Of a stretch of 26,685 bases of DNA, positions 1 through 26,685 are shown piece by piece. Source of the stretch: a virus. The number at the start of each line of letters is the position of its first letter. Position 1 is the first letter of the stretch. Under the pieces are notes generated by a model. It was not told the DNA's origin and ran no database searches. It was given only the letters and a program-made list of their open reading frames with translations. Where the stretch lies: the IMG/VR virus record IMGVR_UViG_3300025168_000552, positions 1-26,685 of that record; one strand, 5' to 3'. The position numbers and the translations under genes were made by a program.

Positions 1-231
1 TATTCCCTTCCCTCAATCGTGACAAGAGCATCAGCCAAGCATCAGAATTTTTCAAATTATCTGCCTCGTCAATCCCCCCTGCACATAAATTTATCCCTGC
101 CCAGCGTTTATAATTTTCTGCTGAACGGAGTATGATATTCGCATACCCCTTACCACTATCCCATTCAACCCTGTATTTAAGTTCGGATGCTGAATAAGAG
201 TAATCCCATCCCGCCTCCTTCAATAGCCTCT
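1..231. repeat. Terminal direct repeat, left copy (circular genome overlap)
   Basis: Bases 1-231 are repeated at the other end of the window at 26455-26685, with mismatches only at position 8 (T here, C there) and position 104 (G here, A there). The repeat begins and ends exactly at the window edges, as expected when a circular or circularly permuted phage genome is assembled as a linear contig. Both differences fall at third codon positions of the terminase gene and are silent (Glu GAA/GAG, Arg CGC/CGT). That points to two strain variants rather than assembly error. Confidence 0.93.
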
Positions 232-483
232 CCAATGTGGGTTGTAAAACATCCTTTATCATTGGATATGTAGGCTCTGCGAGTAATATTGTCCCAGATG
301 GGTTCAGTCCTGCCTGTCTCATCGCCATCAACACAAAGGCTGTGGTCTTTCCGCTTCCTTGTAAAAAGTTAAACCCCGAAGGGTTCAACCATACCCTGCC
401 ACGAGAGCAGGGTACTTGGCTTTACTCCTTACAAATAGATTCTGGTGCTTATATACCTTAAATTTCTTCGAGTTCAAACCCAT
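1..483 (-). CDS. terL: Terminase large subunit TerL, N-terminal part, interrupted by a 29-nt gap in the Walker A motif
   Basis: This is the ATPase end of the DNA packaging motor. The best start is the ATG at 481-483, inside the end of terS. The first 32 codons read MGLNSKKFKVYKHQNLFVRS and on to KYPALVAGYG, the usual TerL lead-in to the P-loop, and then hit UGA at 385-387. From 355 a different frame reads SGKTTAFVLMAMRQAG and stays open through position 1 and on from 26454 to 25646. The join GYG/SGKT rebuilds AGYGSGKT, a canonical Walker A sequence, if the 29 nt at 359-387 plus one glycine codon are skipped. The continuous protein would be about 419 residues, a normal TerL length. The downstream frame has no ATG before the P-loop and only a TTG at 386-388. 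Function is certain from the whole gene; how the gap is crossed is inferred. Confidence 0.93.
359..387 (-). other. Candidate translational bypassing gap in terL
   Basis: These 29 nt separate the glycine codon GGU (388-390) from the glycine codon GGA (356-358) in the P-loop of TerL. The gap opens with an in-frame UGA (385-387), continues as a CUUCGG-capped hairpin and ends in a CUUUUUACAA stretch before GGA. Omitting it (a 32-nt hop from GGU to GGA) converts the GYG frame into the SGKT frame with no other change. T4 gene 60 uses the same order: Gly take-off codon, stop codon, UUCG hairpin, Gly landing codon. Differences from T4 are the shorter gap, take-off and landing codons that are not identical (GGU versus GGA), and no obvious GAG-type helper site before the landing codon. 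Confidence 0.7.
369..388 (-). other. UUCG tetraloop hairpin inside the terL gap
   Basis: On the minus strand the sequence is UUGAACCC-UUCG-GGGUUUAA: eight base pairs (one G-U) closed by the very stable C(UUCG)G loop. The first paired base is the third base of the take-off codon GGU, and the UGA stop lies in the 5' arm. The hairpin begins directly at the P-site codon, which is too close for a normal -1 frameshift stimulator. It is followed by CUUUUU, so a weak terminator-like role is also conceivable. Confidence 0.9.
392..414 (-). other. Second hairpin directly upstream of the terL take-off codon
   Basis: The minus strand reads UACCCUGC-UCUCGUG-GCAGGGUA, a perfect 8-bp stem with a 7-nt loop, ending one base before the GGU codon. 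It is coding (YPALVAGY), so the pairing could be chance. Its placement matches the 5' stem-loop upstream of the take-off codon in T4 gene 60, which is thought to help drive the ribosome forward as it refolds. Confidence 0.7.
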
Positions 484-6998: not shown

Positions 6999-7448
6999 CT
7001 ATCTGACAACCCCTTCCTCATCACCAATGACAACACCATTTAGGTGGTCAATTTCGTGCTGAATAATTGTGGCAACTTGACCCTCATACTTACCAATCCC
7101 CGTGCCAATGTTTTGAAATCCAAAGGTATCGTATGCCATTGTAAGTGAGACACTCCTTTCAACCTCGACCTCCCTATCTGGGACAGACAAACATTGTTCT
7201 GTCGTGGTCACTTTACTTTCAGAGAGTTCGACAATTATCGGATTAACAAAATGCTGAAACCTGTTTCCAATTTTCACCAGAATAACACGACCACCAAGAC
7301 CGAGTTGGTTACAAGCCAATCCAAGTGTCCCATCAATGTTGTTGTTTTTGAGCCAAGACACCATTTTTAAAGCGATTTTACTGCTTTGTTGATATGATAC
7401 CTCCCTGCATTTTTCACGAAGGTGATTAAGGTCTGTAATAATTCTCAT
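6999..7448 (-). CDS. def: Peptide deformylase
   Basis: 149 residues with all three deformylase motifs: GTLGLACNQLGL (motif 1, GxGLAxxQ-like), EQCLSVP (motif 2, where bacterial enzymes have EGCLS) and QHEIDHLNGV (motif 3, HExxH). Cys in motif 2 and both His of HEIDH bind the metal, and Glu is catalytic, so activity is expected. The enzyme removes the formyl group from new proteins. Phage copies are known, notably in marine phages, and are thought to favour processing of particular host or phage proteins during infection. The Gly-to-Gln change in motif 2 is a departure from the usual. The gene overlaps the Mom-like gene by ATGA. Confidence 0.9.
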   Translation of the reverse strand: MRIITDLNHLREKCREVSYQQSSKIALKMVSWLKNNNIDGTLGLACNQLGLGGRVILVKIGNRFQHFVNPIIVELSESKVTTTEQCLSVPDREVEVERSVSLTMAYDTFGFQNIGTGIGKYEGQVATIIQHEIDHLNGVVIGDEEGVVR

Positions 7449-8182
7449 TTATTCCCCCTTTTTGGATATGGTTTAACCCTACATTTTAAAGTTTCCAACA
7501 TTTCCCTGTTTTCTCTTTTATTACCGAGTAGTTTGATGTATCTCGCTTTTGGGAGAATATCCTTCTTATGTATTTTGGGATTATCTAACAGGAAATTACT
7601 TAAATTTTTATATTTATACTTTTTATTGAAATCCCTGTCATTCATAAAAAGTTTGCCATCTTCATATACAAGGTTGAAATGTTTTGTTGTGCCAAAACCA
7701 AGATAATACCAATTTGTTGCTTGATAGATAGTTCCTATTTCTCCTGCCTCTGGGTCAGAAAATGCAACTGCATACCTGTAACCCTCTTTTTTTAAATATT
7801 GTAGCGATGCACCAATCAATTTACTTGCCGAATGTGGATGCGACCAATGAACACAAGCACCCCTTGATAGTTGGATTCCCTTGTCGGCATAGTCATCACC
7901 GACAAATTTTCTGTACCCCTCCATCGCTTGAAAAAAACCATAACAAACCACCCCTGCACAATGCCCATCAAAATATATGCCAAAATGTTTTTGAGTTGTT
8001 CCCATTGTCCCGAGCCATTCATATTCTAAAATAATTCTTTTGGCGGTATCATAGTCAATAGGTCTTATTGTCGCTTTTTTAATATCAACATCAAGAGCCT
8101 CCCAATACCGCCCAAACAAAGGAAGAAAGTCAGAGTCTTGTTTTGAAATTTTCTCTCGAATAACTCTTTGGTGTGCTTTCAT
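7445..8182 (-). CDS. mom: Mom-like adenine modification enzyme (GNAT fold)
   Basis: 245 residues. The first half has IILEYEWLGTMGTTQKHFGI and the GNAT-like strand AGVVCYG. The diagnostic stretch is YRYAVAFSDPEAGEIGTIYQ followed by ATNWYYLGFG, which matches the [YF]xDPxxGxxGTIYQATNW signature of Mom-family proteins. Phage Mu Mom modifies adenines in phage DNA (N6-carbamoylmethyl-type modification), blocking many restriction enzymes. The C-terminal third is basic (NKKYKYKNLSNFLLDNPKIH). Active modification here is inferred. No Com-like regulator is seen beside it. Confidence 0.85.
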   Translation of the reverse strand: MKAHQRVIREKISKQDSDFLPLFGRYWEALDVDIKKATIRPIDYDTAKRIILEYEWLGTMGTTQKHFGIYFDGHCAGVVCYGFFQAMEGYRKFVGDDYADKGIQLSRGACVHWSHPHSASKLIGASLQYLKKEGYRYAVAFSDPEAGEIGTIYQATNWYYLGFGTTKHFNLVYEDGKLFMNDRDFNKKYKYKNLSNFLLDNPKIHKKDILPKARYIKLLGNKRENREMLETLKCRVKPYPKRGNK

Positions 8183-23178: not shown

Positions 23179-23216
23179 GTTATACCAAATCACCTACTTA
23201 TGAGTAGGGTAATTAT
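23179..23216 (-). promoter_or_regulatory. Putative late promoter element, copy 2
   Basis: Matches 1282-1319 at 33 of 38 positions. It begins within the stop codon of the head gene and holds CCTACTCATAAGTAGG then ATTT and TATAAC on the minus strand, ahead of the scaffold and capsid genes. The differences spare both palindrome arms and TATAAC. Confidence 0.6.
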
Positions 23217-24334: not shown

Positions 24335-25649
24335 CGAGTTTAAATAGACTGCTTGGGGTGTCTGATTGTTGTTTGATATTACTCATCGTTTTCTTGCGGT
24401 CTGCCAGATGAACTTCAGCGTCTTTCCTATCCCAATCGGGATTGCGACGCACCAGAATATCAACCTCATCAATAAGTCCGTGAGATAAATCCCAATCGTC
24501 CTTTGCTCTTTGTTCCTCATCTGATAATACCTCCATTGATTCTGAAAAGTCCACGAGTTCTAATTCTCCCACATCTGTCCCCGTATGCTTTTGAATGATA
24601 ATCCTCTCAAGTTTAAACAGGTTATACTCCACATCTCGCCACCTTTCGAGTGATGCTTTCCGTTTGTCGTTTAACTCTTGGTTTCTAATGCGGAGGCTCA
24701 CCCCAGAGGATGCCTGTTCACTACCATCCACAAAGGATGTAGAGAGGTGGTAATTTTGTGCCAACATTTTGTATGAGGTGCGGATGCACTCATCTATTGA
24801 CCTTGTGGTGTCTGGGGGTGTAACCACTCCCATTGTTGAATCTAATTGCATTTTGGTAATCTTATCGGGTGCTACCTCCAGATATTTATTGTCCACCTCC
24901 CCCGTAATGTATACATACCCGAATGATTGAAATCGGATGTTTGCCTGTCGGTCGGATGCCATCATATTGATATTGAGATTTTGACTGATTAAATCTGGAC
25001 AGGCATCGGTATCCATATAGTATGTCTCTGGCTTTCCGTCACGAAAAACCTCCACGAATGGGAGGACACCATACGGGTTTAAATTGTCTGGGTTCTCTGG
25101 GTTAAACATCTTTTTGCCATTGTCATTTTTATCGTAAACGAAATGCTCACTCTCACTCCAATACGACCACAATTCGGGTGTGCTGTCCTTAACAGATGAA
25201 CGGGTTGCCAAAGGATATTCGATTGATATGGGTGTCATGGGGTCATCGCCAAAGGTAGGCTCAAAATCTGTAATGAGGTCAAATTCCATTCCACCATTTC
25301 TGAAACAGGGCTTGATGAGTATCAATTCCAAGAGGTTGGTATATACCTCTGCCTTTTGCATACGGAATGACTTACCTTTTGTTAAATCATAATACACATC
25401 ATTGCCAACCTCACGGATAGGGGCAACCATATAACAAAGCGACACCCTGTCAATGATTCGTTTGGTGATATTGATATTGGATGGCTCAATCTTTTTTAAG
25501 GTATCACCAGAATAAAAGGGAATGATGTACTCCTTTGTCCTGCCCTTGTAAAAGTTTAAGGCATCAAGTCTGGCTCTTAACCATTCATCCTTATCCTTTT
25601 GCTGACCATCAAATCTTGATTGCAGTACCATCTGTTTGCCATAACTCAT
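24327..25649 (-). CDS. Portal protein
   Basis: 440 residues. Features of phage portal proteins are present: N-terminal SNINITKRIIDRVSLCYM, the clip/wing region with NPYGVLPFVEVFRDGKPETY, a stem with DACPDLISQNLNINMMASDR, and the C-terminal helical part ASSGVSLRIRNQELNDKRKA. It forms the dodecameric entry channel and docks the terminase. The start overlaps the terL stop as ATGA, canonical gene order. Confidence 0.9.
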   Translation of the reverse strand: MSYGKQMVLQSRFDGQQKDKDEWLRARLDALNFYKGRTKEYIIPFYSGDTLKKIEPSNINITKRIIDRVSLCYMVAPIREVGNDVYYDLTKGKSFRMQKAEVYTNLLELILIKPCFRNGGMEFDLITDFEPTFGDDPMTPISIEYPLATRSSVKDSTPELWSYWSESEHFVYDKNDNGKKMFNPENPDNLNPYGVLPFVEVFRDGKPETYYMDTDACPDLISQNLNINMMASDRQANIRFQSFGYVYITGEVDNKYLEVAPDKITKMQLDSTMGVVTPPDTTRSIDECIRTSYKMLAQNYHLSTSFVDGSEQASSGVSLRIRNQELNDKRKASLERWRDVEYNLFKLERIIIQKHTGTDVGELELVDFSESMEVLSDEEQRAKDDWDLSHGLIDEVDILVRRNPDWDRKDAEVHLADRKKTMSNIKQQSDTPSSLFKLGA

Positions 25650-26685
25650 CTGTTCATTGCCCTTATGTTTGGAGTGGAAAGTGGGAAAACCTTACAAAGC
25701 GAATACCCCAGAGCATCGCTGATATGGGTGAGGTCTTTATGAATCCCCGTCTTTTGAATCTCTCTTGTCCCCTCTTTGTTAATCACTTGCTCTAAATCCC
25801 GAATCATTACTTTGCAGGATGGGTCAATGATTAGACTCTCCATCGCTTTGTTCACACAATTAACCCTGTCAACCACCATTGGATTCCGTCTGTCCATTAT
25901 CAAGTCCATACCCAAATCTTTCATGATAGTTGCATCAGTCCGCCTTGCCGATGTTCTCCGTTGCGTACTTGCCGAATCTGGGTACATCATATACTTTTGG
26001 TTGGGGTATCGTGCTTTGATTTCGTTGCACATTCTCTCGGTCATCAATTCGTTGCCTCCGCCATGTCGTATGACAACCTCATCGAAGACTCGAACTTTGG
26101 GATGGGTGTCATACTTCTGCCATAGAACCGAACACATGGGGTTGACATTTTGGTCGTTACCGATGCGAATTGGTAGAGAGGGGTTGTATTTGTTTTCTTT
26201 GACATTGTTTATCCTATTAAAGCAGTAATATGTTTGCTGTGAACCAAATATGTGACAAAATTCTCCATCCAAATATGCTTTCTGGAGTTGCTCATCATAA
26301 TTGTCCTTTAGACTTTCAATAAACTCTTTAGGCAATGACCTGTTGTCGATTGTCCTGCCTTGTATTAACTCATAACCCTTCTTTGGGTTGTCCTTCCAAT
26401 TCTCATACACCCACCCAAAGCCTTCGGGTGTCGTGGTAATAAATGCCTGTAAACTATTCCCCTCCCTCAATCGTGACAAGAGCATCAGCCAAGCATCAGA
26501 ATTTTTCAAATTATCTGCCTCGTCAATCCCCCCTGCACATAAATTTATCCCTGCCCAACGTTTATAATTTTCTGCTGAACGGAGTATGATATTCGCATAC
26601 CCCTTACCACTATCCCATTCAACCCTGTATTTAAGTTCGGATGCTGAATAAGAGTAATCCCATCCCGCCTCCTTCAATAGCCTCT
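25646..26685 (-). CDS. terL: Terminase large subunit TerL, C-terminal part (continues at 1-483 across the circular junction)
   Basis: This segment continues the frame of 1-355. It has the Walker B motif AGGIDEAD, the C motif around FITTTPEGFG, and nuclease-domain acidic positions (IGNDQNVNPMC, then YPDSAS, then HISDALGYSL). The domain is intact up to the stop at 25646-25648, which overlaps the portal start. The right copy of the terminal repeat covers its upstream end. Confidence 0.93.
   Translation of the reverse strand, partial: RLLKEAGWDYSYSASELKYRVEWDSGKGYANIILRSAENYKRWAGINLCAGGIDEADNLKNSDAWLMLLSRLREGNSLQAFITTTPEGFGWVYENWKDNPKKGYELIQGRTIDNRSLPKEFIESLKDNYDEQLQKAYLDGEFCHIFGSQQTYYCFNRINNVKENKYNPSLPIRIGNDQNVNPMCSVLWQKYDTHPKVRVFDEVVIRHGGGNELMTERMCNEIKARYPNQKYMMYPDSASTQRRTSARRTDATIMKDLGMDLIMDRRNPMVVDRVNCVNKAMESLIIDPSCKVMIRDLEQVINKEGTREIQKTGIHKDLTHISDALGYSLCKVFPLSTPNIRAMNR
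26455..26685. repeat. Terminal direct repeat, right copy
   Basis: Matches 1-231 with two mismatches (26462 and 26558). See the left copy. The circular unit is therefore 26,454 bp. Confidence 0.93.

Follow-up and report, generated by a model that had tools for sequence, protein, structure and literature searches.

Short stop-containing inserts at the ATPase motifs of a phage terminase gene and their probable translational bypassing

The large terminase subunit gene (terL) of the phage contig analyzed here meets a stop codon within its Walker A motif and resumes shortly afterwards in another frame, which raises the question of how, if at all, full-length TerL is produced. The stretch of DNA examined (hereafter the window) is the IMG/VR contig IMGVR_UViG_3300025168_000552, comprising 26,685 bases, which encodes terminase, portal, major head protein, and tape measure, and therefore represents a complete-looking tailed phage. 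Its ends form a direct repeat of 231 nt (1-231 = 26455-26685) with 2 mismatches, probably strain variation; the genome is effectively circular and was left unclosed in the assembly, and terL, located on the minus strand, therefore passes from base 1 into 26454-25646. The repeat does not include the insert, and no second terL was seen in the window, which leaves the interrupted copy as the sole terL found in this complete-looking genome. Elsewhere in the window, a peptide deformylase gene, which suggests a bacterial host, adjoins a Mom-family DNA modification gene (6999-7448 and 7445-8182), and a mostly intergenic 38-nt repeat (1282-1319 and 23179-23216; 87% identical) with a CCTAC...GTAGG-type palindrome is possibly a regulatory site.

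The insert in the Walker A motif

The minus strand reads ...GTACCCTGCTCTCGTGGCAGGGTAT GGT TGA ACCCTTCGGGGTTTAACTTTTTACAA GGA AGC GGA AAG ACC. As claimed in a preliminary description of this DNA, the frame encoding KYPALVAGYG hits TGA (387-385), and SGKTTAFVLM resumes in another frame at 355. Compared with intact relatives (relatives in general, intact or not, are coded L003, L004, L005, etc.), the insert comprises 32 nt (387-356; TGAACCCTTCGGGGTTTAACTTTTTACAAGGA), namely the 29-nt gap and the landing GGA. Omitting these 32 nt regains AGYGSGKT, the same sequence as in intact L003, L006, and L007; the search for homologs lacking the 29 nt at this site, which the preliminary description had proposed, was thus successful. 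The first part of terL shows 90% identity to the TerL of L003 and 93.5% to that of L004/L013, and the TerL of intact relatives matches Terminase_6N. The features of the locus are listed in Table 1.

Table 1. Features of the interrupted terL in the window
Feature	Position	Strand	Details	Basis
terL, first part	388..477	-	TTG start 477-475 to take-off GGT 390-388; encodes LNSKKFKVYKHQNLFVRSKAKYPALVAGYG	translation
5' stem-loop	391..415	-	10 bp, loop of 5, directly before take-off codon	predicted
Take-off Gly codon GGU	388..390	-	second Gly of GYG in Walker A	GGT also in L012, L004, L005
UGA stop	385..387	-	directly 3' of take-off codon	sequence
Take-off stem-loop	367..390	-	GGUUGAACCC-UUCG-GGGUUUAACU, 10 bp, contains Gly codon and stop	predicted
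Coding gap	359..387	-	29 nt	missing from insert-free relatives
Landing Gly codon GGA	356..358	-	within ACAAGGA	placed by SGKT resumption in homologs
terL, resumed, first stretch	1..355	-	SGKTTAFVLMAMRQ...	PHROG terminase large subunit, E 9.5e-11
terL, resumed, remainder across contig join	25646..26454	-		PHROG terminase large subunit, E 3.8e-26

Both hairpins put forward in the preliminary description are predicted, but not with the geometry given there: the take-off hairpin does have a UUCG loop and contains GGU and UGA, with a stem of 10 bp rather than 8, whereas the 5' hairpin, likewise of 10 bp and not 8, ends directly before GGU and not two bases earlier. Folding of the 81-nt region gave z = -2.95 against shuffles. 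Among the matches listed for 102 homologous terL sites, the 5' hairpin of the window was the most stable, and a hairpin at this site also occurs in insert-free L003, where it ranked 7th of the 102; the 5' hairpin is thus owed partly to the coding sequence, which favors a hairpin there generally. The basic nascent peptide suggested as a signal resembling that of T4 gene 60 is uninformative, being ordinary TerL sequence: KKFK is found in the window, in insert-free L003, and in L004, and is missing from L012, so that no shared signal is evident.

No other copy of the 20-nt hairpin core was found in the window or in IMG/VR, and the idea that the insert duplicates some repeat of the window was rejected, none having been found. 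The 3' end of the insert (AACTTTTTACAAGG, 357-370) is a near match to the beginning of the portal gene (AACTTTTACAAGG, 25544-25556), which may be due to chance or hint at an origin by copying. A transcription terminator was considered and rejected, since a U-rich stretch lies 3' of the hairpin in the window but in neither L012 nor L004.

Interrupted and intact terL in relatives

Relatives were gathered by TerL and portal profile scans and by DNA motif scans of viral contigs, yielding approximately 10 contigs of the same clade and many further, more distant ones. Cultured relatives showed TerL identity below 60% and no portal match, and a PDB sequence search with intact L003 TerL as the query returned no match. 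GYGSGKT is uninterrupted in L003, L006, L007/L015, and L016/L017. As a sample of IMG/VR, we used 102 distinct KYPxLVxGYG-type sites, defined by a pattern blind to what follows; among the matches listed, 99 run straight into GK[TS], and three (the window, L005, and L012), all belonging to this clade and all with GGT-TGA, are interrupted.

GGT-TGA inserts break terL in three relatives on other contigs, two of them at the codon identical to that of the window. The break in L012 is at this codon and differs in sequence (GGT/TGACCCGTAAGGGGTCGATGAATTAAGGT/GCGGGTAAAACA, slashes marking the breaks). L004 has an intact Walker A motif and carries a 47-nt insert at Walker B (GCCTCTGGT/TGACCATCTCTCTGGATGAAAATCTGGAGGGATGGCATTTAAAAGGC/GGAATTGATGAG). 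The insert in L005 (IMGVR_UViG_2786546419_000005, also NZCP01000007.1), again at the codon of the window, comprises only 5 nt (GGT/TGAGT/GCAGGGAAAACG; 2869-2876) on a contig with ambiguous bases; lacking a gap hairpin and a Gly landing codon, it may be a deletion derivative, have lost its hairpin in amplification or assembly, or constitute a true defect. The L005 contig was placed in a MAG labelled Woesebacteria and is perhaps a misbinned phage.

The layout observed in the window, L012, and L004 is the same: a 5' stem-loop, GGT, TGA in the stem of the gap hairpin, 7-8 nt of mostly A/U, and AAGGN, whose GGN is the final triplet before TerL resumes exactly. The insert sequences themselves are unrelated, and the hairpins are alike in position only. 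The gap up to the landing codon measures 29, 26, and 44 nt in the window, L012, and L004, and skipping restores GYGSGKT, GYGAGKT, and ASGGIDEAD, respectively, exactly. UGA directly follows the take-off codon in all four interrupted genes, and the hairpin containing the stop is found in all but L005. A 5' stem-loop is predicted in all four, but in insert-free relatives too. Take-off and landing codons are GGU/GGU in L012, GGU/GGC in L004, and GGU/GGA in the window, with no Gly landing in L005; GGU and GGC are normally read by one tRNA-Gly(GCC). The codon mismatch named as a weak point in the preliminary description is thus eased by L012 and L004, but persists in the window itself, and its other weak point stands, as inspection by eye of the window, L012, and L004 showed no Shine-Dalgarno-like helper at a fitting distance ahead of the landing codon. 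All four inserts have a length of 2 mod 3, a class that bypassing does not require. Only in L012 is the -1 frame interrupted, by a UAA just before the landing codon; in the other three it is open.

In random sequence of the window's composition, the probability per insert of a stop at the first position is ~0.07, and that of GGN at the last ~0.055. Folding as stable as in the window, L012, and L004 was reached by random sequence at frequencies of 0.03, 0.007, and 0/3000, and by dinucleotide shuffles of the inserts at 0.14, 0.02, and 0/2000, respectively. Because of the 0.14 obtained against dinucleotide shuffles, which is not significant, the window hairpin is unconvincing alone; the joint recurrence is convincing. 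The GGTTGA..AAGG pattern was no commoner in the relatives' records than in the control, and the motif alone is therefore not diagnostic. A relaxed Walker A plus TGA scan gave 19 matches, with terL only in L005 and L012, and a Walker B plus TGA scan recovered L004 only. Frame-break comparison across the clade found terL as the sole broken gene, and together with a GGN-stop scan revealed no further bypass sites in the remaining genes of the window. In a distant terL (L096, IMGVR_UViG_3300013112_000011, minus strand), a single in-frame TAG (YELT-TAG-GRTED) might reflect amber suppression, an altered code, or a variant introduced by sequencing.

Outside the insert, TerL is open in all four genes. 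The dN/dS of the resumed terL is 0.08 for window/L003, 0.08 for window/L004, and 0.05 for L005/L012 (the last with saturated dS; the L006/L016 pair was left out as misaligned). These values of 0.05-0.08 indicate that terL is maintained as a protein under strong purifying selection, in agreement with the earlier view that the gene is intact beyond the insert. On the TerL tree the inserts have a scattered distribution for which well-supported branches require three changes or more, which implies several gains or repeated losses; repeated gain at both ATPase motifs of TerL is probable. They are possibly mobile elements, although mobility is inferred and hinted at only by the recurrence at conserved motifs. 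A mobile origin at the P-loop had been suggested before; Walker A and Walker B are the insertion sites of mycobacteriophage terminase inteins, P-loops being frequent targets (PMC5050341). A scan of 20 ORFs upstream of terL in the window revealed no homing endonuclease, the nearest thing being a NinG-like ORF that matched HNH weakly. The ORFs of relatives were checked for homing endonucleases only in part.

Bypassing and alternative explanations

The explanation that we consider probable, in the absence of protein or RNA data, is that the inserts in the essential terL gene are recurrent gains, possibly mobile, which the ribosome bypasses in translation. This reading, already offered in the preliminary description, is favored because directly observed features converge on it: terL is insert-free in close relatives, unrelated inserts share one layout, the motif is restored exactly, dN/dS is low, the interrupted gene is the sole terL found in a complete-looking phage, and the order of elements is that of T4 gene 60. 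Bypass itself, its efficiency, and the production of full-length, gap-free TerL are inferred. The ribosome would translate terL as far as the Walker A Gly codon GGU, with UGA in the A site, where the gap hairpin holding the stop would hinder termination and help peptidyl-tRNA-Gly to release its codon. With the 5' hairpin folding in its wake, the ribosome may then be biased toward forward sliding, until the peptidyl-tRNA re-pairs at the Gly codon ending the insert (GGA in the window, GGU in L012, GGC in L004) and synthesis goes on as SGKT.... Against bypassing stand the third-base mismatch of GGU/GGA in the window, the lack of a common nascent-peptide signal and of a visible Shine-Dalgarno-like helper, the 5' hairpin in insert-free L003, and the absence of a gap hairpin and Gly landing in L005. 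The uniform 2 mod 3 length, with a -1 frame open in three of four, also counts against it; this length is unexplained, and the T4 gap is 2 mod 3 as well.

The inserts could instead reflect decay, defective genomes, or scars of error-prone repair, for instance after cleavage of the P-loop by a homing endonuclease or CRISPR, or an assembly error. The scar-like 5-nt insert on the ambiguous L005 contig and the frequent use of P-loops as insertion targets (PMC5050341) fit this explanation, but it is unlikely, as the inserts come from four different contigs, the remainder of terL is open in each of these with low dN/dS, no other broken gene was found, and random scars would not have a stop, a hairpin, and a GGN ending in common. 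An assembly error at the contig end is itself unlikely, given comparable inserts on other contigs.

Somewhat less probable still is a split terminase, in which translation ends at UGA and begins anew at the UUG overlapping it (UUGA), so that TerL would reassemble from two chains, an N-terminal peptide of 30 residues and a C-terminal protein. Split genes have a precedent in T4 topoisomerase (PMC3014915), and a UUG that shares bases with the stop and leads into the resumed frame is present in the window, L004, and L005. However, the ATP-binding loop would be divided between two chains, and in L012 UAA shuts the UUG frame before the landing site, with the next in-frame start lying after Walker A.

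RNA-level removal of the insert, as a minimal intron or a processed hairpin cut from the mRNA, would account for the precise restoration of the protein and the paired flanks, and we rate it marginally lower still. It leaves unexplained why an insert should start with a stop and end in a Gly codon, and a size of 29-47 nt makes splicing improbable: to our knowledge, this is far below known self-splicing introns, and the archaeal splicing endonuclease is absent from bacteria.

Least credible of all is a conventional -1 frameshift at GGU-UGA with the insert translated (GYGLNPSGFNFLQGSGKT), giving a product that would carry GLNPSGFNFLQGSGK (insert-encoded residues LNPSGFNFLQ in the window), which suits the 2 mod 3 lengths and the open -1 frame of the window, L004, and L005 but, like the UUG restart, fails in L012 because both need an open -1 frame, shut there by TAA, and which would lengthen the P-loop into a non-canonical form at a GGU-UGA that is no slippery heptamer known to us.

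Returning to bypassing, a broader hypothesis, which we put forward tentatively and hold to be somewhat less than an even chance, is that the Walker A/B codons of terL in one clade are invaded time and again by very small mobile elements, each made up of a stop, a hairpin, an A/U-rich tail, and AAGGN, which remain harmless via bypassing and perhaps guard against homing endonucleases or time packaging-motor synthesis.

Comparison with known systems

We know of one well-proven gene with programmed bypassing in bacteria, T4 gene 60, and a few candidates. No description of the terL inserts was found in the open-access literature, most subscription papers and preprints being outside the scope of the search. 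Bypassing of a terminase is not wholly new, having been proposed for Streptomyces phage phiHau3 (PMC5009743); what is new is a second terminase lineage, a gene 60-like design of stop plus hairpin, three dissimilar elements that are built alike, and the use of a second site. Unrelated elements of one layout would separate needed features (stop, take-off hairpin, Gly landing) from dispensable ones (UAG, one specific nascent peptide, perfect codon matching), and recurrence at terL P-loop sites, including phiHau3 in another terminase family, suggests a connection, open to testing, of bypassing with insertion at conserved motifs. In the output of gene callers, such terminases will appear as broken genes.

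In T4 gene 60, the sequence runs from a 5' stem-loop through GGA, UAG, and a UUCG take-off stem-loop including both, to a landing GGA. There, the A-site stem-loop and the nascent peptide prevent termination, the upstream mRNA promotes sliding in one direction as it refolds, and of the ribosomes that enter the bypass approximately half go on to resume (PMC11194080, PMC5009743). The present inserts resemble this 50-nt bypass in the Gly take-off with an immediate stop, the hairpin holding both, the 5' stem-loop, the Gly landing, and the 2 mod 3 length (PMC5009743, PMC11194080), and the window alone also in the UUCG loop. In contrast, the T4 gene encodes topoisomerase and not terminase and uses GGA-UAG instead of GGU-UGA, whereas the gaps described here are shorter (29, 26, and 44 nt), have matched landing codons only in L012, show no conserved KKYK-type nascent peptide and no visible landing Shine-Dalgarno sequence, have no homing endonuclease in the neighboring ORFs scanned, and represent several elements at two sites. 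Protection from a homing endonuclease has been associated with the T4 insert (PMC5009743).

The phiHau3 terminase, named as a probable bypass in the same review (PMC5009743), breaks at about 2607-2625 of our record L064 (GWG/TTACTCCGGT/KDPLLA), with GGC take-off and GGT landing; it is our own reading of the sequence that the KGWG/KDPLLA break is at a Walker A-equivalent position. Position and Gly codons are thus shared, but the phiHau3 gap of 7 nt is too short for a gap hairpin, UUA rather than a stop follows the take-off codon, and both terminase family and host are different. The mitochondrial byp elements of Magnusiomyces capitatus are likewise short, sporadic inserts in essential genes that are skipped in translation and tolerate imperfect take-off and landing matches (PMC5009743); they number 81 in 12/15 genes and are read by mitochondrial ribosomes, whereas here only terL is affected and bacterial ribosomes are presumed. 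Finally, mycobacteriophage terminase inteins occupy the same gene and the same Walker A and Walker B motifs (PMC5050341), but they are long, in-frame, and removed at the protein level, in contrast to the inserts of 29-47 nt with a stop codon described here.
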